A stretch of 20,602 nucleotides of DNA from positions 1 to 20,602 of IMG/VR virus record IMGVR_UViG_3300034418_000993; one strand, written 5' to 3'. This DNA comes from a virus. The notes below the pieces were generated by a model, which was not told where the DNA came from, did no database searches, and saw only the letters and a program-made list of their open reading frames with translations. Positions 1,062 to 19,477 of the stretch are shown piece by piece. The position numbers and the translations under genes are program-made. Within the stretch, counting starts at the first letter, position 1. Each line of letters opens with the position of its first letter.

Positions 1062-2150
1062 TTATAACTCCGCATTAAAGCCTAAATAAGCATTGCTATT
1101 GTTTGTTCTGCACGGGCCTGAATGACCCACTGTTCCTGATGCTCCGCTATTATTTGCATCTAGACTAGCTGCTCTAGGACTGCTTCTTCCTATTCCAGTA
1201 AACGAATTAAAAGAGTCTAAAGTGTTGTTTGCATAAACAGCATAATAATCAGTGCCAGACACAGTATCAAGCGAAGGGGCAGCCCTCATAGTCACTGGAA
1301 ACTCAACTGTAGTAGCAACCAAATTGCTGGCATAATAAGAGCCTGTAGGAATAGTTTGAGAGTCACCCTTTGCAAGTAAGTAGTAATACCTCTGACACAG
1401 CGCTAGTTCTTCACCATAAGACCGATGCTCAAATTCGGTGGCGACAGAGCCGACTTCAAGTTGAACGCCTGTGATGTAAAACGCATCATTGTTGGACGCT
1501 ACTGCGTTTACCTGACCCACTGCACGGTTGGCAGTTACAGTAAGGTTCCAAGATGTATTGAGTGTTCCGCTAGTATAGTTAGACCCTGCCCCAAGCCACC
1601 AAATCATAGAAAGGCTTGAGTTTGCATCATTGTCCAAAGACCCTGAAGTATCACCAGAAATAGTAATTACCTTCTTTTCCCAAGTATTGCTTGCGGAAAC
1701 AGAATACGTTGTTGAAATGGAGCGATTATTGTCGTTATCAGACAACTCAAAAACGTATGTCCCAGTAACAACAGACTTTACCCAAAAGCTAATAGTAACA
1801 GGCAAAGCGTTGGAAGACCCTTTTAATATCTGTTGTAAGTTTTGGCCTTCAAGGGAGGTGATAATCTTTGCGCTGGCGGCAGAAGTTGGTGACGAAAAAC
1901 CTGTTGGCGCCAACGCCTTAAAAGACTTACTAAAGCCAGAACCACTAGGTGCATCGGATGCTTGCTCTAAAGTAAAACTGCCGCCCATAGTGCCAGATAA
2001 CTGAAACCTATCTACAGTTTGGTATCCGCCAGAAGCATTGGTAAATGGGCCAGCACCACGCTGTGCCACGTTCATAGCACCATTGATAATCAAATTACGA
2101 CGCCCAGACGGTACGCTTCCAAGTTGGGCTATCTCACGGGCGTTACTCAT
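1062..2150 (-). CDS. Tail fibre / receptor-binding protein with jelly-roll-like domain
   Basis: This is a 362-residue virion adhesin. It opens with NLIINGAMNVAQRG (residues 19-32) and a GGYQTVDRF segment. A beta-rich region follows with the look of a carbohydrate-binding jelly roll (roughly 40-235: SFWVKSVVTGTYVFEL, then strands up to FYITGVQLEVG). The hallmark joint VATEFEHRSYGEELALCQRYYY lies at about 236-257. This arrangement is widespread in fibres of marine phages, including cyanophages, and in prophages. The last 105 residues, rich in Ser, Asn, Thr and Tyr, look unique and are the natural place for a host-specific tip. No catalytic motif is visible, so binding is likelier than depolymerase activity. 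The start ATG overlaps the stop of the preceding fibre gene by one base (TAATG) and has GGAG eight bases upstream. Being last in the fibre run, it may be the distal receptor-recognising part. Confidence 0.82.
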   Translation of the reverse strand: MSNAREIAQLGSVPSGRRNLIINGAMNVAQRGAGPFTNASGGYQTVDRFQLSGTMGGSFTLEQASDAPSGSGFSKSFKALAPTGFSSPTSAASAKIITSLEGQNLQQILKGSSNALPVTISFWVKSVVTGTYVFELSDNDNNRSISTTYSVSASNTWEKKVITISGDTSGSLDNDANSSLSMIWWLGAGSNYTSGTLNTSWNLTVTANRAVGQVNAVASNNDAFYITGVQLEVGSVATEFEHRSYGEELALCQRYYYLLAKGDSQTIPTGSYYASNLVATTVEFPVTMRAAPSLDTVSGTDYYAVYANNTLDSFNSFTGIGRSSPRAASLDANNSGASGTVGHSGPCRTNNSNAYLGFNAEL

Positions 2151-3859
2151 TATGCGTTCTCCAGTGCTTCAAGACGGTTCTCAATATTTGCCAAGCGTTG
2201 CTCTGTTGCCGCACCGATAAAGGCCAGCAATTCAGGATAGCGGATGCCTAAGCGTGTACGCTCCGTTGCACCCTCTGGTGCTTCTTCGGCTGTCTCATAG
2301 ATGTCAGTGCGTGTGTAGGCTTCTTGTGCCTCTACAATTACATTGCCTTCTTCATCTGTTTCTTCTGCAACCGCTGGCACTTCGGTTTGTGTTTCCCACC
2401 AAGTGCTGGAGATAAAGAAAGCATAGTTACCAGCGTCTAAACCTGCATCAGCCATAGCTTGCTGAACGTCTTGTGCAATCACGCCAGCGTGTGTCCGTGC
2501 GCTATCACCTTTTTCCGCAATAGCATCCTTCCATTTAAACGTCTTAAACAGTTTGCTGATTGCTTTGGCGGCAGTGATTTCAGCATCCGACATAGATGCG
2601 ATATTTTCTTTCTCATTACGGTCAGAAGTTTGAATGGTGCCGTTTGTGGCGTATACGTCATCCCAACGGCGATTTGATATCCCTAAATCTCTTGCATTAT
2701 CTGAGTTTGGATAAAACCGTGTTGTGTCCCAACCATAGTAAACTGTTCCATTCGACGCTAAAAATCCTGTGTTGTTTTCTGAATTAAAATAGGTATACAA
2801 ACCAGAGAGAACACCAACACTCCCCACAGCCGTGCCATTTTTGCGGAACACCGCAATGTCGCCATCGGATGTCGTTCTGTTTATATCAAGAGGCGAACCA
2901 CCGCTTCTGGCCGCCCAAATTCTTCCGCTAGCTATAACGACGCCATTATCTGCACTTGTGCCTGTATTATTGTTATAGGGATAAGTATCAGTCGTACCAA
3001 CCAGCAAGTTGCCACTGCTGTCGATGCGAATACGTTCTGTGCCAGATGTGCCAAACCGCATAAAGTCAGAGGGATGGTTGTATTCTAAGTAGCCTCTGTA
3101 GGCAGTAGTGCCTGAAGTCCCATCAGCAAAGTAAATGTTCCCTGTTCCTGTGGTTCCACAATAGAATGTCATTCCAGCTTCGCCAGAACCAGAGCCAACC
3201 ACAAGATTATTTGCGCCAGCATATAATGAACTGGGCGAATCCGTTCCAATCCCCACATTGCCACTGCTGTCGATGCGCATGTGCGTTTGAACATTATTTG
3301 TGCCTAAGTTTAAAGCATCATTTGTATGGTCATACTCAACACGCCCAACAACTCCATCAGACTGATCGCCAAAGTACAATCTTGAGTAAGACGCATCACT
3401 AGATTGAAGTCTAATTGTTGCGTCACCACCAGAATTGTTAATATGCAAAGAATTATCTGGTGAATCTGTACCAATTCCAACCAGATTATTCGTGCTATCG
3501 ACGTACAACGTATCCGTATCAACCGTTAGGTTGCCTGATAAAGTGGTAGCACCACCGACCGTCACATCCCCACCAAACGTGCCAGAGAAGACAGAGAAGC
3601 TGTCAAACGCAATCACCTCTAGCAAGTCACCAGCCGATGCACCGGATGTCAGCACAACCGATGTACCTGTCGTGGCGGTGTAGTCTGAGTTAGGATCAAG
3701 CAAAACACCGTTCAGGAACACATCCATAAACTTGGTGTCGGTGTAGCTGAGTGTGCGGCTGTCATCGTCAGCACCAGAGAAGGTTGTCTGGCCGCTGGTA
3801 GCAGTAAAGAGATAGCGATGGCGAACGCCTTGTGATGGGGAAGTTCCGATATATGCCAT
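2150..3859 (-). CDS. Tail fibre with C-terminal S74 intramolecular chaperone, long paralogue
   Basis: The product has 569 residues. An N-terminal domain (about 1-95) carries the pattern YLFTATSGQTTFSG and DVFLNGVLLDPNSDYTAT, seen in marine phage fibres and probably serving attachment to the particle. A shaft (about 95-405) repeats VGIGT-x-SP and IDSSGN elements. The S74 domain (chaperone of endosialidase) runs from about 411 to the end. In SDRNEK the presumed nucleophile is Ser412 and the partner Lys417, spaced as in endosialidases; AGVIAQDVQQAM and RTRLGIRYPELLAFI follow. It ends in a short coiled coil, EQRLANIENRLEALENA. In this family the C-terminal domain drives trimer folding and then cuts itself off just before the Ser. 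The gene sits two bases after its shorter paralogue, with an AGGGG site nine bases before the ATG inside that gene's last codons. Confidence 0.88.
   Translation of the reverse strand: MAYIGTSPSQGVRHRYLFTATSGQTTFSGADDDSRTLSYTDTKFMDVFLNGVLLDPNSDYTATTGTSVVLTSGASAGDLLEVIAFDSFSVFSGTFGGDVTVGGATTLSGNLTVDTDTLYVDSTNNLVGIGTDSPDNSLHINNSGGDATIRLQSSDASYSRLYFGDQSDGVVGRVEYDHTNDALNLGTNNVQTHMRIDSSGNVGIGTDSPSSLYAGANNLVVGSGSGEAGMTFYCGTTGTGNIYFADGTSGTTAYRGYLEYNHPSDFMRFGTSGTERIRIDSSGNLLVGTTDTYPYNNNTGTSADNGVVIASGRIWAARSGGSPLDINRTTSDGDIAVFRKNGTAVGSVGVLSGLYTYFNSENNTGFLASNGTVYYGWDTTRFYPNSDNARDLGISNRRWDDVYATNGTIQTSDRNEKENIASMSDAEITAAKAISKLFKTFKWKDAIAEKGDSARTHAGVIAQDVQQAMADAGLDAGNYAFFISSTWWETQTEVPAVAEETDEEGNVIVEAQEAYTRTDIYETAEEAPEGATERTRLGIRYPELLAFIGAATEQRLANIENRLEALENA
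3484..3535. repeat. Diverged direct repeat, copy 1 (fibre shaft start)
   Basis: These 52 bases match 4847-4898 at 45 positions with no gap. They encode the GNLTVDTDTLYVDSTNN segment of the long S74 fibre. Most differences are transitions. The copy marks common descent of, or exchange between, the two fibre genes. Confidence 0.75.
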
Positions 3860-3860
3860 T

Positions 3861-5003
3861 TTACATTGCCCCTATGATAAATGCTAGAAGTTCAGGGTAG
3901 CGAACACCAAGACGTGTGCGCTCTACAGCGCCTTCTGGTGCTTCTTCCGCTGTCTCAAATGTGTCTGTACGGGTATAAGCATCCTGTGCCTCAATGCCGT
4001 TTTCTTCATCAGCCTCAACTTCTGGCACTTCTGTCTGTGCTTCCCACCAAGTAGATGAGATAAACATGGCGTAACGACCAGCGTCTAAACCTTCAGCGGC
4101 AAAAGCATCCTGTAAGTCTTGGGCAATAATACCGAAGTGAATACGCGCATCGTCACCCTTTTCAGCCACAGCATCTCTCCAACGAAACTTACGCATTAAA
4201 CCTTTGCAGGCTACAGCCACACGTTTCTCTGCCTCAGACAATTCTTCAATATCTTGCTTTTCATTACGGTCAGATGTTTGGATGGTGCCATTAGTGGCGT
4301 AGACGTCATCAAAGCGGTAGGATGCTGATCCTAAATCGACTTGATTGTCACTAAACGCACCTGATTTCATTGGGTAAACTGTCAGGCTACCAAAAGATAA
4401 TCCTGAGCCAGTTGATGTGCCTTGTATATATGAAACTCCACTGATTGTTCCAATACTCCCCACAGTGGTATTGTCTTTGCGGAAGTCTATAAAAGCACCA
4501 TCACTAGTTGTTCTATTTATAAAAAGAGGCGAACCAGAATCCCTTGTAAAAATAGAACCATTAGTTCTTAATTCAACACCAGCCGTTCCTATAGATGTAG
4601 CAATTTTCCCCACCAGCACGTTGCCACTGCTGTCGATGACCATGCGCTGGCCGCTGTTGTTTGTAAAGAAAGATAGATTACTAGATGAGTCTGCTCTTAT
4701 GCGAACAAGGTCGGCAGAATCCGTGCCAGCTAATAGGTTTAATTCTGTAAAAGAAGCACCACTAGATTGGAAATATCCTGATTGGCCGTCTGATTGCCCA
4801 TCAACGTGCAACACCTCTGATGGCGAAGACGTCCCAATCCCAACCCGATTATTTGCGCTATCGACGTACAGCGTATTCGTGTCAACCGTCAGGTCGCCAG
4901 CAACAGTCGTATCGTTATTAACCGTCAGGTCATCGCTGACAGTCATGGACTGGGATTGCGTTACATCTACAAAGTCAACAGGCTTTTTGCCAGTATACGC
5001 CAT
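3861..5003 (-). CDS. Tail fibre with C-terminal S74 intramolecular chaperone, short paralogue lacking end coil
   Basis: This 380-residue fibre has a short N-terminus (AYTGKKPVDFVDVTQSQSMTV) followed by repeated DLTV-type strands, a brief shaft with VGIGTSSPSEVLHVDG and IDSSGNVLVG elements, and an S74 domain from about residue 243. The presumed self-cleavage dyad is Ser244 and Lys249 in SDRNEK, and FGIIAQDLQDAF and RTRLGVRYPELLAFI match the longer neighbour closely. It stops at FIIGAM, so the 17-residue coiled coil ending the neighbour is missing. The neighbour's ribosome binding site and start occupy exactly that spot. Codons for the shaft start are also shared at DNA level (4847-4898 against 3484-3535). 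The start ATG overlaps the preceding stop (TAATG), with GGAG eight bases upstream. A working trimeric fibre is the simplest reading, but loss of the end coil could affect registration or release. Confidence 0.86.
   Translation of the reverse strand: MAYTGKKPVDFVDVTQSQSMTVSDDLTVNNDTTVAGDLTVDTNTLYVDSANNRVGIGTSSPSEVLHVDGQSDGQSGYFQSSGASFTELNLLAGTDSADLVRIRADSSSNLSFFTNNSGQRMVIDSSGNVLVGKIATSIGTAGVELRTNGSIFTRDSGSPLFINRTTSDGAFIDFRKDNTTVGSIGTISGVSYIQGTSTGSGLSFGSLTVYPMKSGAFSDNQVDLGSASYRFDDVYATNGTIQTSDRNEKQDIEELSEAEKRVAVACKGLMRKFRWRDAVAEKGDDARIHFGIIAQDLQDAFAAEGLDAGRYAMFISSTWWEAQTEVPEVEADEENGIEAQDAYTRTDTFETAEEAPEGAVERTRLGVRYPELLAFIIGAM
4847..4898. repeat. Diverged direct repeat, copy 2 (fibre shaft start)
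   Basis: This is the counterpart of 3484-3535 and encodes GDLTVDTNTLYVDSANN in the short S74 fibre. A second, perfect 18-base repeat coding for the IDSSGN motif occurs at 3009-3026, 3258-3275 and 4621-4638, so the two genes share several short patches that could serve recombination. Confidence 0.75.
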
Positions 5004-10492: not shown

Positions 10493-11296
10493 CTATCCGA
10501 TGATGACATAATTATATGTTTTACCTGCCACGCTGTTAGGCAGATGGTTAACTGTTGCCTGACCTTTTTGTCTGTCTGTGACATACATCTCAAATGCTGT
10601 TCCGCTAGTTTGAGATGGAGCTAAAAGCCTGGCGTTTACCATTAGTGATGGAATAGCTGGAATTGCAAATGGACTTGTTAGGGCTGAATAAGCCTCAAGA
10701 TAAACATTTGCGTGTTCTGCGGCTCCAACAATCTCAATATAATCACCAGCATCTAACTCAAGAGGATGGTTTATTGATACTGGCATATATCCATCTACTG
10801 AGCCGTGATGCTCCACTACTGCAAACTTTGTTGCAGAGTGTGGATAGTCTGTTCCGTTTACTCTAACCCAAAGAAACCCATTGTAGATCTGCGGTTCCAT
10901 GTTCACAAACAACGCTGATATATCAACATCGTAAATACCAGCATAGTCAACTGTGATCTGATTAGATGATAATGACATACCATAAGCATATTCAGTTTCA
11001 CTTAACGTAAGAACTTGCGGTGTATTCGCCGCAGAAAATGTAATATCCGAATGATTCTCAAAAGTGCCATACGGGTATTTATTTGTTGCCGCCGCAGAAA
11101 GAGAAGCAGGGGCAAAAAGAATAACTGAGTCAGCACCAATCCGACGATCAAGTAATGTTGTAGTAGTCGCACCGCCTGTATCCAGTGTTATTGTACCAGT
11201 AGAGTTTAGCTTACCTTCAACAAGGTTATTGACAACCTCCGCAACCTCACGCGGAGTGCCTCCTAGATTTGGTAGCCTACGGTACTGGTTAGCCAT
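10493..11296 (-). CDS. Virion structural protein with fibre-type N-terminal module and beta-rich C-terminus
   Basis: This 267-residue protein starts with LPNLGGTPREVAEVVNNLVE and GKLNSTGTITLDTGGATTTT (about residues 8-48), then LLDRRIGADSVILFAPASLSAAATN. That block is common at the start or in the shaft of phage tail proteins and fibres. The rest (about 70-267) is beta-rich. The middle part (TENHSDITF-like strands, QITVDYAGIYDVDISALFVN, FLWVRVNGTDYP, HPLELDAGDYIEIVGAAEHA) resembles a TNF/C1q-like jelly roll, a fold used for trimeric tips; this fold call is from the strand pattern only. The ATG overlaps the preceding stop by one base (TAATG). Coming after the nozzle gene, it may form part of the tail or a short spike; an appendage hub is an alternative. 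Confidence 0.68.
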   Translation of the reverse strand: MANQYRRLPNLGGTPREVAEVVNNLVEGKLNSTGTITLDTGGATTTTLLDRRIGADSVILFAPASLSAAATNKYPYGTFENHSDITFSAANTPQVLTLSETEYAYGMSLSSNQITVDYAGIYDVDISALFVNMEPQIYNGFLWVRVNGTDYPHSATKFAVVEHHGSVDGYMPVSINHPLELDAGDYIEIVGAAEHANVYLEAYSALTSPFAIPAIPSLMVNARLLAPSQTSGTAFEMYVTDRQKGQATVNHLPNSVAGKTYNYVIIG

Positions 11297-12768
11297 TACC
11301 TACGCCCTATCGTCCCAAAGTCTAAATCAATGCCCTGCGCTTTTTTCCAGCCACCTGTAAGGTTAAGCCGTATCCTGTGATAACGACCATTAGACCTAAC
11401 AGGGATAAGGTTATCTGTATTTAAGCTAGATGCAGTGCCAAATGAGTATGTGTCAATCTGACGGTTACGCGATGCTATTTGCGCAGTGACGTTCCCAGAT
11501 GCGTTTTCACGAAGCGTAACATAAGGGATAACATTTCGGAGCATAGTGAAAGAACCTGTCTTACCTTCAAACTCAGCCGTTTCAATAGTCGCCGAAAGCG
11601 TAGAACCAGTAAACGTTTGGATCTTATTGTCTTTAGAAGCTGCAAAAAGAAACTCTCCACCACGGTAAATAGCTCCATCAAGAGAAGCAGGTAGAACATC
11701 AAGAGCACCAAAAGCGGCATCAAGATCCTCCAAGGTATAACCAGCAGTATATACAGGAGCGACCAGATCCACGGCGATGTCAGCCGTTGACCACTTACCA
11801 AGCGCGTAATTGTAAATGATAAGTTTGTCAGCAGAGCCATCACTTGATGCAGTGCTTGCGTAAGACCATACGATAATTTGCCGAAGAGGATCCGCAGATG
11901 CCGACATATTCCTTGCGTGTTCACCATTCCAATCCTCTAAGAAAAAGCGGTTTACTTTTTCTGCGCCAATAGGCTGTGACCGCTCACCGTCAAACATATA
12001 AAAGCCATCGTCAGCAAGATAGAACACACTATGGCCAACATTGCAGACACTGCCTGGCACCTTACATCCACGCACAGTCTCAACCTTGTCAAACTGGAAG
12101 ATCAGAGGTGAGCCAATATATGAGGCGCGAACAATACCTTTCTCAAGTAGGATTGTTGCATACTCTCCGCCGACTAGTCCAGTTACGTCGCCCATGTCAG
12201 CAATGTCTTGGAAGTCAGCCTGAGTCGCCGCAGAGATAGCCCAGCTTGTATGATCGCCAATACCAGACCAACGCACACGGTATGGCTTGTTACCGTCCGT
12301 CGCGTCATAGGTAAAGCCTGTCATCACAAAGTCGCGCACAACCGCAAGATACTTAGCGCGTGGTGCATCAGCAGAAAGGTCGGCAAACTGCGTACCACTG
12401 TAAGCCGTGATATACTGAATAGGATCGCCAAAGTTAGTGCCAATTACATCTTGACCAAACTGTACAAAGCGCCAGCGATCATCGTCATCTGTGCTGTAGT
12501 TGCCAGTCTTGCTAACATTATCAAGCGTACTTGTGGTCGTGTTAAACTGATAAATCTTGCCACGGTCAGCGGCATACAAGGCGATCTGACCATCGTCATC
12601 AGCCGCCGCAATCATACCAACAAGCGGCCCATCAGCGGCGGCGCTAATAGGAGAAAGGCTTTGCATACTCTCATAGCCAATAGCCGCTGGAATTACGTTA
12701 TTGGCAATGGTTACACCAGCATTACCAAAATCAGATTGATCTGGTAAAAATTCGCCAAACTGTATCAT
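11296..12768 (-). CDS. Tail nozzle / packaged-DNA stabilisation protein (P22 gp10-like)
   Basis: The 490-residue product belongs to a widespread phage family comparable to P22 gp10 and podovirus nozzle proteins, which close the tail tube and keep DNA in the head. Visible signatures: RVRWSGIGDHTSWAISAATQ (about residues 163-182), then ADFQDIADMGDVTGLVGGEY, GIVRASYIGSPLIFQFDKVE, the turn GCKVPGSVCNVGHSVFYLAD, and DGFYMFDGERSQPIGAEKVN followed by RFF. The alternating strand pattern and repeated Trp/Tyr positions suit a beta-propeller-like body. The C-terminal part has short strands ending GWKKAQGIDLDFGTIGRR. It has no membrane segment or signal peptide, as expected for a particle component. The start overlaps the end of the repeat-protein gene by four bases (ATGA), with GGAG six bases upstream, so the two are probably translated together. 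Confidence 0.85.
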   Translation of the reverse strand: MIQFGEFLPDQSDFGNAGVTIANNVIPAAIGYESMQSLSPISAAADGPLVGMIAAADDDGQIALYAADRGKIYQFNTTTSTLDNVSKTGNYSTDDDDRWRFVQFGQDVIGTNFGDPIQYITAYSGTQFADLSADAPRAKYLAVVRDFVMTGFTYDATDGNKPYRVRWSGIGDHTSWAISAATQADFQDIADMGDVTGLVGGEYATILLEKGIVRASYIGSPLIFQFDKVETVRGCKVPGSVCNVGHSVFYLADDGFYMFDGERSQPIGAEKVNRFFLEDWNGEHARNMSASADPLRQIIVWSYASTASSDGSADKLIIYNYALGKWSTADIAVDLVAPVYTAGYTLEDLDAAFGALDVLPASLDGAIYRGGEFLFAASKDNKIQTFTGSTLSATIETAEFEGKTGSFTMLRNVIPYVTLRENASGNVTAQIASRNRQIDTYSFGTASSLNTDNLIPVRSNGRYHRIRLNLTGGWKKAQGIDLDFGTIGRR

Positions 12769-13643
12769 TTGTCACTCCAAACTTCTGAACCTGCATCTAT
12801 CTTTACCCAAGTACCAAGACCAGCGGCAACAAGGTTCCAGCTTTCATCTTCCGGCGGAATCTTAGTCCAAGTATCTTCTCCAACTATAACATCAGACAAT
12901 ACAGTATCCGATACCGCAAGAATAGACCACAATTCACCCAGTTTTTCTGCCTCTACGGATAGAGAAGCTGTGGCAAGTGGTGTTGCACGACCGTCAGCAA
13001 AATAGAAGCCGTTAGCCGTTGCTGTGGCAAATACGTTTACATTTGCGTTGGCACTAGCAACAAAACCACCAGCCGCTTCAACAGTAGCAGAGGTAGATGG
13101 CTGTGCCTCACCAAGACGCAACCGCACAGCTTCGGCAGTAGTCGTAACAGCGGAGGATGCAGATGCCGCGCCAAACTGGATACGAATACCTTCAGAGGCA
13201 ACACTAGCGGATGTGCTAAGTGCAGACTCGCCGATAACAATACGGATGCCCTCAGAGGCTACCGTGGCGTTTGTAGATGCAGATGCCTGACCGTTGGCAA
13301 TAAGGAAAGCCTGTGCATCCATAGTCGCTGGGCCAGCCAGCATAGATGCGCCAAACTGTATCCGTATTCCTTCGGACGTAACACTGGCAGAGGCATTAAG
13401 AGATGCCTCAAATGTCAAGATACGCAAGCACTCAGCAGATACGCTGACAGATACAGACGCTGATGCTGTATGTAGGAATATACCAAAACCAGCGGCAGAA
13501 ACAGATGCGCTGGTTGATGGTGTAGACTCACCTTCGCGTAAAGCCGCAGTCAGCCAGATAGGGTCGTCAAGACTATACGGTAGAGTGTCTAACGTACCCC
13601 AGTTATCTAGCTGTTCTAAATTTGGCCCTACGATTTCGGCCAT
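12765..13643 (-). CDS. Virion protein made of ten exact 20-residue repeats plus a 10-residue Trp repeat
   Basis: The product has 292 residues. The N-terminus (LDNWGTLDTLPYSLDDPIWL, 12-31) is a pattern often seen in neck or tail proteins. Residues 43-242 form ten units of exactly 20 residues with the consensus STSASVxSEGIRIxFGxAxx; units 3, 5 and 6 are the most alike. Alternating small and branched residues suggest two short strands per unit, as in a beta-solenoid. The C-terminus has Trp at 259, 269, 279 and 289, a strict 10-residue spacing, with WTKI and WVKI strands. No enzyme motif is seen. It lies between the small beta protein and the nozzle gene and overlaps the latter by four bases, so I infer a tail or neck component. 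The ribosome binding site is weak. I do not recognise a named family for the repeat part. Confidence 0.78.
   Translation of the reverse strand: MAEIVGPNLEQLDNWGTLDTLPYSLDDPIWLTAALREGESTPSTSASVSAAGFGIFLHTASASVSVSVSAECLRILTFEASLNASASVTSEGIRIQFGASMLAGPATMDAQAFLIANGQASASTNATVASEGIRIVIGESALSTSASVASEGIRIQFGAASASSAVTTTAEAVRLRLGEAQPSTSATVEAAGGFVASANANVNVFATATANGFYFADGRATPLATASLSVEAEKLGELWSILAVSDTVLSDVIVGEDTWTKIPPEDESWNLVAAGLGTWVKIDAGSEVWSDK
12777..12869 (-). repeat. Ten-residue tryptophan repeat (C-terminal, four Trp)
   Basis: Codons for Trp259, 269, 279 and 289 are spaced exactly 30 bases apart. Between them are Ile or Val two or three residues after the Trp and a short turn with Gly, Asp or Pro. 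A further Trp at 239 fits the same phase. Comparable Trp ladders occur in phage tail proteins and would fit short antiparallel or spiral strands. Confidence 0.85.
12918..13517 (-). repeat. Ten tandem 60-base units coding for a 20-residue protein repeat
   Basis: Each unit spans 20 codons without any insertion or deletion over 600 bases. The best conserved core is SEGIRI followed by a hydrophobic residue and Gly. The DNA copies are clearly diverged, with the closest copies around 13158-13277 and 13338-13397, so the array is old or under strong constraint on length. Confidence 0.88.
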
Positions 13644-13645
13644 AA

Positions 13646-14035
13646 TTAAGCCGCCGTGATGTCAACACCCGATGTGGCAATCTTAAAGATGTCACCTTCG
13701 TTGATGGTCTTGCTTGCAGTCAAAGCCGCATGGAACAAAAGGTTGCCAGCAGAAGAAGCATCCCAGATACCGATATGTGTAATCGTTCCCCAGTTGCCAC
13801 CAGAAGCGGCAGGAAACTCAACAGCGGCATCGTTGCTTGCCGTTCCACCAGAAGATGCACCAAAAGAAATCGACTGACGTGCATAGCCGTTGCCGCTTAC
13901 TTCTGTGCCTGTACCAGCATCGGTAGGATCGGCAGTGTGCAGACCTACATAGATAGTGGCTGGGGAAGCTGTGGATGATGTTCCAAGAAAGTGATCCAGA
14001 AAAGCATTTTCCAGATAATCGCTCATTGCGCTCAT
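13646..14035 (-). CDS. Small beta-rich virion protein (GTEVSGNGYAR type)
   Basis: This 129-residue protein carries a well-spread phage signature: a helix SDYLENAFLDHFLG, the strand PATIYVGLHTADPTDAGTGT followed by EVSGNGYARQSISFGA, the segment NWGTITHIGIWDASSAGNLL, and the end ASKTINEGDIFKIATSGVDI. The family occurs in siphovirus, podovirus and mycobacteriophage structural modules, often annotated as minor structural or tail protein, with no agreed function. Here it sits between the adaptor and the repeat protein, which suggests a neck or tail role. The start overlaps the adaptor stop by four bases (ATGA), and GGAG seven bases upstream decides for this Met over the Met three codons later. No membrane segment is seen. 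Confidence 0.8.
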   Translation of the reverse strand: MSAMSDYLENAFLDHFLGTSSTASPATIYVGLHTADPTDAGTGTEVSGNGYARQSISFGASSGGTASNDAAVEFPAASGGNWGTITHIGIWDASSAGNLLFHAALTASKTINEGDIFKIATSGVDITAA

Positions 14036-14661
14036 GTTAATTCTCCGTAGTCAGATTTCATAAAGAGGGCGCTACCAGCGTGTTTACCACGCTCTTCTTC
14101 TTTCTTTATCTCATCAAGTGACCGTGTAAACAACTGCTCATATAAAGCAGTCTTTTGGTCATCCATAAGATAAATGCTCGCTTGAGCAAGTGCGCCATAC
14201 AGATATGCGTCGGGATGGCGTGTTAGCATAGTATTGGTCGTGTTGATGTCTGACAAATCAGCAACACCCTCTACATATACAATTTCTGCTGTGTAGCTGC
14301 TATCTGGCGTAGGAGCAAACTTAATTTCTGTGCCAATGATAGTATAGCCACGCGGTTTACCGATTGCTGTAGACGAGTACGTTTCATCCAGCTTGGCTGG
14401 GGTGTAATACTCAAGAACCTCAATCGGATTAGTGTTTAGCTTTACAAGACGAATAGAACGCAAGTCTGTCGGCAAGGATACAAATGCGTCACCAGACGTT
14501 AGCGTAGATGTTGCGCGTTTCTCCTGACCACGCGACTCCAGTAGTCGGCTCATACGTCCCTCAGCTAATGCGATAAACTCAGGAATACGATCCGTTAAGT
14601 CATCACGGGCTAGGAAGTTAGAAATAGCCGTTTTCAGTTCTGAGTAAGTTCCAATAGCCAT
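14032..14661 (-). CDS. Head-to-tail adaptor (SU10-type)
   Basis: The 209-residue product resembles adaptor proteins that form a dodecameric ring under the portal in short-tailed phages such as SU10. Features: an N-terminal helical pair (YSELKTAISNFLARDDLTDR and PEFIALAEGRMSRLLESR), then the strand-turn FVSLPTDLRSIRLVKLNTNP, the PRGYTIIGTEIKFAPTPDSS strands, YTAEIVYVEGVADLSD, and a C-terminal helix (HPDAYLYGALAQASIYLMDD) with a charged extension. The pattern LPTDxRxIRxV followed by PxxYTIIGxxIxFxPxP is a reliable mark of the family. Length is in the usual range. The ATG overlaps the upstream stop by one base (TAATG) with only a weak GGCGG nearby, so coupling is likely. It should bridge the portal and the nozzle encoded three genes later. 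Confidence 0.85.
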   Translation of the reverse strand: MAIGTYSELKTAISNFLARDDLTDRIPEFIALAEGRMSRLLESRGQEKRATSTLTSGDAFVSLPTDLRSIRLVKLNTNPIEVLEYYTPAKLDETYSSTAIGKPRGYTIIGTEIKFAPTPDSSYTAEIVYVEGVADLSDINTTNTMLTRHPDAYLYGALAQASIYLMDDQKTALYEQLFTRSLDEIKKEEERGKHAGSALFMKSDYGELT

Positions 14662-17362: not shown

Positions 17363-19477
17363 TTAACGCCTAATCCGTATTCCCCCTAATGAAGAAAAGT
17401 CTGGTAGTTTTAAGTTAGACAAATCTATTGGCTGTATATTTAAATTTGGAATAACAACTGGAGCTGGTTTTGGCTGTGTATTCGTCACAGTGTTGCCTGT
17501 TTTGTCTACTCCTAATAGCTCAGGTTTTGCCATTTTTGAAAAATCTAATTTCTTCAGCCCTTCAGCTATAGCCGCTTGATCTATTTTTAGATTGGAAAAA
17601 TCAAGGTTACCAAGGCTTTCCGAAAGAGCTTGATGGAACGGATCATTTTTTATTGCATTTTCTAGTTTCTTTTTCTCAGCTTCTCTGATCTGGGAAACAG
17701 TTGTAAATGGCAGTGTCTGCTCATTGTGACGACCTTTAGAGTATTCACGCGCATCACTAAACAGTCCGCCCCAATCAATATTGTTCGGAGTGCTTTCTGT
17801 CGGAATCAAAGCACCCTTCTCAATCATGTCGATAACAATATCATTAGCACCGCGATTAACATTGCCATTGTTAATGTCAATCGTCTGGTCAATGCCTTTA
17901 AGTTTTGACTGATCTACCTTAAAGCCAAGATTATCTGTCAACTCGTTTAACACTAAGTTGGTTGTATGCAACTCAGGCATCGTGTATACCCAGCCCTTGT
18001 TTTTGCTTGCTTCATCTACAAAGGCAAAGTCATCGCCCTTATAGCCAAGCTCTGCTCTACCAAACGTAGAGCCGCCACCTCCAAATGCACGACCTACAAT
18101 CGGCAGGCCCTGCAACACATCTTTGACGCTAAGATCTTCAGAAAGAATTTGCTCAAGTCCAATCCCTATTCCAATAGGCCCAAGCACTGGTGCTACTGTT
18201 CCAGCGATGGAGCCAATAGAAGCGGCTGTGCTTCCTGCGGCGGCACCCTTAGTCGCCATTAATGCGGCAGTTGTAGCGGCGTTAGCAACAGCAACGGCTT
18301 CGCCAGCAGAATCGATACCACCCTCAGCCGCCTTAAGACCACCAAGAATAGTGCCAACATTAGCCATTTGACCAGCGCCAGGTAAACCTTTTGATAAAGT
18401 TCCTGGGACTTTGTTCATAACAAGGTGATCTAACCCTCCATAGGCTTGAGCAATGTTGGCCGCTGTTGGATCTTCAAGTGCCTTGCCAATAGCAAGCCCA
18501 GCACTAGCGTCTGCAACGCCGCCAACAATCTCACCCGGTAAGCTGATCTGCAAGTCTTGTGGCAGAATTGTGTTTAACTCTCCAACAGCATCTACAGCTT
18601 TGTAAAGATTGTCTGGGTTAGGATTGTTTGCAAAGTTTTCAATACTACCGTAAGCGTCAAATGCTTTTTTGCCAGAAGGCAACACAGTCTCTTGGAATGT
18701 GTTTAGCCATTGTGGCTTGTCAAACTTTTCATCAAGTTTAGCCAAAAATTCTTTTGTTTTATTTTCCATGGTACGCAGACCTTCGTCGCGTACAAATTGT
18801 TTTTGTGCGGTGTATGCTTTATCTATGTCAGCTTTAAGCTCTGATTCCTGCCAACCTTTAACAAGCGGATCAACAAAAGTTTTCTTTGCTGGCTGTGTTA
18901 CTTTTTCCTCAAACTTTTCGCCTAAACTTTCTTCTTTTTTCTTAACTTCACCAGAGAAAGGATCGGTGACCAAGTTAAATAGATCTTCCGCGTATGGATA
19001 GACAGCGGCTAACGCACCAGCGCCAGCAATAGCTTGAGCAGGGTTAAATTTATCCTTCTGCACCTCAAACCCAGGAATTTGAGCTGGGATAAATCCGCCA
19101 GCGCGATACATATTTCCAAACATACTAGGATCAAAAGCAAAGCTCTCTTGGAATTTCTGCTCTAGTGGAGCGTACTCTTGACCGTAGTCTTTAGAAAAAA
19201 GAGATTGAATATTGGCAACATCAGGAGCCATGCCTAACAAACCTTGGCTCATTGCAAAGCGACCAGATGGTGTCTGCTCATAACCCTTCATAAACTCTGG
19301 CAGGTTAGTTGCTGAATACGAACTGCCTGACTGAAATCCAGGAACATAACCAATCTGCGAGCCAGGCACCTGAGAAGTAGAAAGACCACCCATAAGCGTG
19401 TTCGGAGCTAACGGCGCTGGAACATTCAGCAATGTCGCCGTATCAATTTGATCCGATGTAAGTGGCCCAACTGCCAT
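17363..19477 (-). CDS. Large unrecognised protein between portal and scaffold (possible virion protein)
   Basis: I do not recognise this 704-residue protein. Visible parts: a Gly/Ser/Pro-rich N-terminus (to about 80) without signal peptide; a short hydrophobic helix at about 148-161 (AIAGAGALAAVYPY); a charged helical part (about 180-260, many Lys and Glu); a Gly/Ala-rich hydrophobic region (about 312-445, with ANAATTAALMATKGAAAGST and APVLGPIGIGIGLEQIL); a mixed region with Asn-rich IDINNGNVNRGAND; and a C-terminal part with recurring DFSNLK, DFSKM, DLSNLK, DFSSL elements ending in IRIRR. The Gly/Ala hydrophobic stretch recalls the 1019-residue ejection protein, so an internal head or ejection protein is the best guess. 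It starts two bases after the portal stop, with only GAG seven bases upstream. No nuclease, protease or lysin motif is seen. Confidence 0.65.
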   Translation of the reverse strand: MAVGPLTSDQIDTATLLNVPAPLAPNTLMGGLSTSQVPGSQIGYVPGFQSGSSYSATNLPEFMKGYEQTPSGRFAMSQGLLGMAPDVANIQSLFSKDYGQEYAPLEQKFQESFAFDPSMFGNMYRAGGFIPAQIPGFEVQKDKFNPAQAIAGAGALAAVYPYAEDLFNLVTDPFSGEVKKKEESLGEKFEEKVTQPAKKTFVDPLVKGWQESELKADIDKAYTAQKQFVRDEGLRTMENKTKEFLAKLDEKFDKPQWLNTFQETVLPSGKKAFDAYGSIENFANNPNPDNLYKAVDAVGELNTILPQDLQISLPGEIVGGVADASAGLAIGKALEDPTAANIAQAYGGLDHLVMNKVPGTLSKGLPGAGQMANVGTILGGLKAAEGGIDSAGEAVAVANAATTAALMATKGAAAGSTAASIGSIAGTVAPVLGPIGIGIGLEQILSEDLSVKDVLQGLPIVGRAFGGGGSTFGRAELGYKGDDFAFVDEASKNKGWVYTMPELHTTNLVLNELTDNLGFKVDQSKLKGIDQTIDINNGNVNRGANDIVIDMIEKGALIPTESTPNNIDWGGLFSDAREYSKGRHNEQTLPFTTVSQIREAEKKKLENAIKNDPFHQALSESLGNLDFSNLKIDQAAIAEGLKKLDFSKMAKPELLGVDKTGNTVTNTQPKPAPVVIPNLNIQPIDLSNLKLPDFSSLGGIRIRR

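Follow-up and report, generated by a model that had tools for sequence, protein, structure and literature searches.

The 292-residue repeat protein encoded in the window, the whole stretch of 20,602 nucleotides analysed here, is probably (with odds of roughly four in five) the 'rope' of a beaded side fibre resembling fibre I of podophage GP4, in which it would thread gp80 beads at about one repeat unit per bead. Bead homology, gene order and the repeat step suggest that the module in the window is of the same kind as GP4 fibre I, and the window protein itself appears, by its sequence, to lie outside the GP4 rope family.

The protein is composed of a conserved head, an array of ten units and a second array built on tryptophan (Table 1). 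The sequence-only reading had described ten gap-free units of 20 residues at exactly these coordinates, strict in length and loose in sequence, and had known of no named fold with their consensus, and on all of these points it is confirmed. A unit PSSM chain spans the array with every step equal to 20. Scored with BLOSUM and compared with 1000 shuffled versions of the same residues, self-similarity reaches z = 10.2, 10.2, 9.9, 8.4 and 8.1 at lags 20, 40, 60, 80 and 100, with peaks at multiples of 20 only and negative values at lags 19 and 21. The units are strongly diverged and relatives very rarely alter the unit length; 96 related or adjacent proteins together give the unit consensus SASATVTAEGIRIQFGASSL. 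Purifying selection acts on the repeat region (dN/dS 0.10-0.25 in 11 pairs), and copies of the protein (identical, at 97%, and diverged) are found in other viral contigs. Searches with the window protein gave no Pfam match above the cut-off, no PHROG match and no PDB match; the Pfam hits to CPT_N and SlpA_D2 lie below the cut-off and were rejected. The near-invariant columns of the head in a 47-sequence alignment follow the pattern MAEIVGPNLEQLDNWGTLD...W..ALREGES. The C-terminal array reads LW..., TW, SW, TW, VW, with one W lost at residue 249. Of the 278 W-to-W distances in the relatives, 276 are exactly 10, and most relatives have 4 or 6 W residues, against 5 in the window copy. The length of this W array also tends to vary by steps of 20 residues.

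Table 1. Coordinates of the repeat protein, its segments and the adjoining genes in the window.
Feature	Positions	Strand	Details	Basis
Rope-like protein, 292 aa	12765..13643	minus	ATG at 13643, stop at 12765	ORF list; copies elsewhere; dN/dS
N-terminal head, non-repeat, conserved	13518..13643	minus	residues 1-42	near-invariant columns, 47-sequence alignment
Ten 20-residue units, gap-free; proposed bead-binding array	12918..13517	minus	residues 43-242	periodicity; unit PSSM chain
C-terminal W repeats, period 10	12768..12929	minus	residues 239-292	W spacing over relatives
gp80-family bead protein, 129 aa	13646..14035	minus		PF23140 Gp80 E 1.6e-51; 8jou_a E 3.7e-15
Virion structural protein, nozzle position, downstream	11296..12768	minus		phrog_3287 E 1.2e-84
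SU10-type head-tail adaptor	14032..14661	minus		PF24175 E 6.1e-36

The tail-module setting proposed earlier for the repeat protein stands, and a structural role in that module is supported; the key neighbour, the upstream gp80 gene with its matches to PF23140 and 8jou_a, had been missed. Only 2 nt separate the end of this gene from the start codon of the rope. On the other side, syntenic relatives of the gene in the nozzle position are annotated 'phage stabilization protein'. Elsewhere in the window, a 704-aa ORF (17363-19477, minus strand), which has no PHROG match at E 0.01, is flanked by the portal and by a small ORF that precedes the scaffold. Two consecutive tail-fibre ORFs (2150-3859 and 3861-5003, minus strand) have the C-terminal families phrog_7121 and phrog_1171 in common, and their sequences suggest a duplication.

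Relatives of the module show a constant step with a changing number of units. Their loci were drawn from viral contigs both via the neighbouring gp80 and via the repeat protein itself, giving about 90 distinct sequences for the ORF that follows gp80; gp80 is present in 150 of 152 sequences overall, and in nearly all loci that were fetched by rope similarity. Across 96 proteins, 533 of the 565 unit-to-unit steps are exactly 20 residues. The distance from the REG[EA] motif to the LG[ED].W motif is 119-121, 139 or 199-200 residues, equal to 6, 7 or 10 units, and the 68 proteins sorted by array length comprise 38 with six units, five with seven and 25 with ten. One related pair, from loci L013 and L036, differs by 80 residues that are cleanly missing from the middle of one protein. 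The unit ladder is strict but not absolute, because most ten-unit relatives have one 21-residue step. Units of variable length among relatives, which the sequence-only reading had named as an outcome that would remove its own structural idea, did not appear; the changes are of whole units, and the gain or loss of entire 20-residue units agrees with its suggestion that the protein may set a length. In hhalign comparison the window-type rope matches the proteins of Venkman, ctXG6705, ct2t2046, ctjtQ328 and L192 at 99.8% (E 1.9e-30), values that composition bias may inflate. With this caution, the window protein appears to join the Venkman-like ropes.

The PDB holds one relative of the window gp80, 8jou_a, from a single entry with ten chains entitled 'Fiber I and fiber-tail-adaptor of phage GP4', and PF23140 is the family of Gp80, the fibre I protein of this podophage. 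Zheng et al., in J Mol Biol in 2023, are said to have found five fibres I in GP4, each consisting of five gp80 dimers joined by an elongated 'rope' protein. The 8JOU protein has been described as a dimer, and its fibril as running between an adhesin and the nozzle collar (PMC13243795). The GP4 genome is among the viral contigs (L186, 61129 bp, gp80 100%). The 325-aa ORF directly after its gp80 has 20 as its top lag, with z of 5.1 for the whole protein and 6.5 for the best stretch. When trained on GP4-like phages, a model of the unit counts eleven units in GP4, L191, JC1, CSP3 and Itty13, and seven in BcepMigl. No PDB chain matched the 325-aa GP4 protein by sequence, and the linking chain therefore appears not to be deposited under this sequence. 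The eleven motif matches in the GP4 repeat protein are a point against the rope reading, in that 8JOU has ten gp80 chains; ten chains against ten to eleven units would fit about one unit per bead.

GP4 fibre I and the window module are alike in having a homologous bead protein, gp80, followed by a protein of 20-residue repeats. The two repeat proteins differ in that the GP4 protein belongs to phrog_19041, unlike that of the window, in that the GP4 unit consensus is Gly/Ala-rich, and in the C-terminal W array, which is absent from the GP4 protein. Profile comparison found no homology between window-type and GP4-type ropes (hhalign probability 1.3%), and their equivalence therefore rests on synteny and periodicity. 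In Itty13 and GP4 the rope gene is soon followed by one for a conserved protein of only about 93-98 aa, directly in Itty13 (L006:7276-7572) and one gene later in GP4 (L186:4886-5167), and genes of similar size are found in L191, JC1 and CSP3.

The pairing of a 20-periodic protein with the gp80 family spans podo-, sipho- and myophages. In a scan of 31 gp80 loci, 16 of the 82 ORFs lying no more than 700 bp from a gp80-family gene showed lag-20 periodicity, compared with 1 of 201 ORFs farther away (Fisher p about 1e-8), a result slightly favoured by three loci that were found via the rope or are the window itself, the remaining loci having been picked by gp80 or by accession. The sole distant periodic ORF is the rope of Venkman, which lies in the same tail module as gp80. 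About half of the 31 loci have no neighbour above the periodicity threshold, and no clear 20-periodic neighbour of gp80 was seen in Caulobacter C1, Microcystis Mvi-JY20, Octadecabacter DB2 and ctvy9321. Antisense ORFs over ropes look periodic too and were left out, and the alignment of gp80 from many phages had too much diversity to serve in a scan of the phage collection. A 20-periodic ORF at the Tardiphaga locus (L177) was rejected as a likely chance case; it lies inside a long tape-measure-like ORF.

The periodic neighbours include gp29 of Mycobacterium phage Heath, gp235 of Bacillus phage SP-15 and an ORF of Agrobacterium phage Atu_ph08, as well as proteins in bacterial contigs from Pseudomonas, a proteobacterial MAG and Nitrospira. 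Sampling that started from gp80 added further cases, namely L192 (z 8.3), Velveteen gp20 (z 6.7) and Nicholasp3 gp24 (z 5.7). The Atu_ph08 ORF, which follows gp80 (L154, about 4405-4917, plus strand), is unannotated, and the hypothetical protein AUZ95466 is annotated antisense over it. In the Firmicutes phages PVJ1 and Lietuvens, units are seen by eye ahead of a DUF2313-type baseplate domain, and at least some Firmicutes gp80 loci have only 2-3 unit-like stretches, likewise judged by eye, fused to a baseplate protein. Several hundred mycobacteriophages have matches to the gp80 family (641 at E 1e-3), and the repeat neighbour was checked in three of them. In Desulfofustis phage LS06-2018-MD01, a 264-aa protein (WBK39765, L155:4001-4795) shows by eye two tandem gp80-like domains and is possibly a natural fused gp80 dimer.

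Three other fibre systems bear comparison with the window. Slicko01 resembles it in having a gp80-like gene near a protein with 20-residue periodicity. This gene (WGH49681, E 8.5e-4, under the family cut-off) is one short gene away from a 1843-aa protein (WGH49683, L170:7570-13101), of which residues about 1040-1720 are 20-periodic with z up to 11.8. Unlike in the window, however, the repeat part stands behind depolymerase-like domains and amounts to roughly 35 units (about 680 residues), and the unit sequence is different. The 1843-aa protein is of the type of gp34 in the gp34-gp36 module of LSH1 (PMC13243795), its periodicity being known here from the Slicko01 sequence, and the C-terminal part of LSH1 gp34 was called unexplained by its authors in 2026 (PMC13243795). 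Heath gp29, a mycobacteriophage minor tail protein (phrog_416), has about eight 20-residue units beside a gp80 homologue, as in the window, whereas Heath is a siphophage and the protein ends in a glycine-rich domain (PF21722) instead of the W array. Anabaena phage A-1(L) is alike in form, with five flexible beaded fibres of about 14-16 beads at its 15-mer neck (PMC10966104). Its gp81 trimers, as published, chain head to tail unaided, and no rope is described (PMC10966104).

For the repeat array, the sequence-only reading had pictured a regular solenoid or trimeric spiral with one unit per turn, which the single-chain structure predictions do not bear out. The AF2 model of the window protein from 47 sequences has a mean pLDDT of 41 and a pTM of 0.27, with two short strands per unit. 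The gp80 and rope of locus L088 were modelled as one chain, with the stop read through as a modelling device only and with the rope rows removed from the fusion alignment because MAFFT had aligned them with gp80. In this model the gp80 part matches 8jou_a (E 5.6e-6, TM 0.74 on the target), and a few rope units reach pLDDT up to about 83 and resemble beta-solenoid turns. Outside gp80 the Foldseek matches to beta-helices all have E > 0.2, the match of gp80 to 8jou_a being the only significant one in the PDB. The gp80 fold of the model also weakly matches neck or connector proteins of Sf14 and Bas63 (9c39_K, 9mt4_K; E about 5e-3). Two results of phmmer in the PDB, which linked L164 with NDM beta-lactamases and alignment A1 with phycocyanin, were rejected as composition noise.

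It is unlikely, and less likely than a bead-threading rope, that the repeats stack as a free-standing beta-solenoid with one unit per turn, as a monomer or a trimer, and make up a short spike or shaft beside which gp80 is a separate component. Twenty residues is a usual length for a solenoid turn, both models have two strands per unit, with units of L088 at pLDDT of about 80, and there are the weak beta-helix matches, but the low confidence of the window model and the E values of these matches weigh on the other side. The authors of the LSH1 study obtained a beta-helix model of similarly low confidence for a region of this kind and suspected a hallucination (PMC13243795). Ten turns would span only about 50 A, and a solenoid would leave unexplained why the unit tracks gp80 genes. 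This tracking, specific to gp80-family genes and extending to phages with unrelated tails, also tells against the likewise unlikely alternative that the units bind some other partner, such as capsid or collar subunits, while gp80 caps or decorates the structure and the unit number is unrelated to the bead number. Unit counts such as 7 and 11, which are not dimer multiples, would suit that alternative, and the GP4 figures of about 11 units for 10 beads would not. It is very improbable that the protein serves as a flexible spacer or a linker of low complexity, with a periodicity that comes from recent tandem duplication and not from function. The Ser/Ala/Thr-rich composition, and the name 'serine-rich adhesin' that some annotators give to relatives, would agree with a linker, but strongly diverged units remain in exact register, the repeat region is under purifying selection, and an identical period recurs with unrelated sequences in many phages.

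If the window protein is a rope, an extended chain of ten 20-residue units would thread and organise copies of the 129-residue gp80-like bead. Each unit would contribute a single segment for binding a bead, perhaps the pair of short strands seen per unit in the AF2 model, and the repeat number would fix the bead number and the fibre length. We infer the binding of units to beads and the 1:1 ratio, under which an array of ten would make the fibre about ten beads long (five dimers), and a length-ruler role; attachment would be through the conserved head at the N-terminus and the W array at the C-terminus. An even-number rule of two units per dimer was dropped because seven-unit ropes exist, which do not fit it in its strict form.

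A more general proposal, slightly better than an even bet, is that this two-gene fibre module is widespread among tailed phages, whichever of the three morphologies they have. The rope, stepping strictly by 20 residues, would template the polymerisation of gp80-family beads, one per unit, and the number of repeats would set the fibre length, with 2-3 units in some Firmicutes phages and more than 30 in Slicko01. The sequence of the rope would be nearly free to drift. For GP4, the analysis points to the gene of the 325-aa product as a candidate for the chain that links fibre I. It also provides a possible account of the C-terminal region of proteins of the LSH1 gp34 type, and offers a function for the repeat-bearing proteins annotated 'minor tail' or 'hypothetical' that adjoin gp80-family genes. 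If the units count beads, the array would be a simple genetic ruler.
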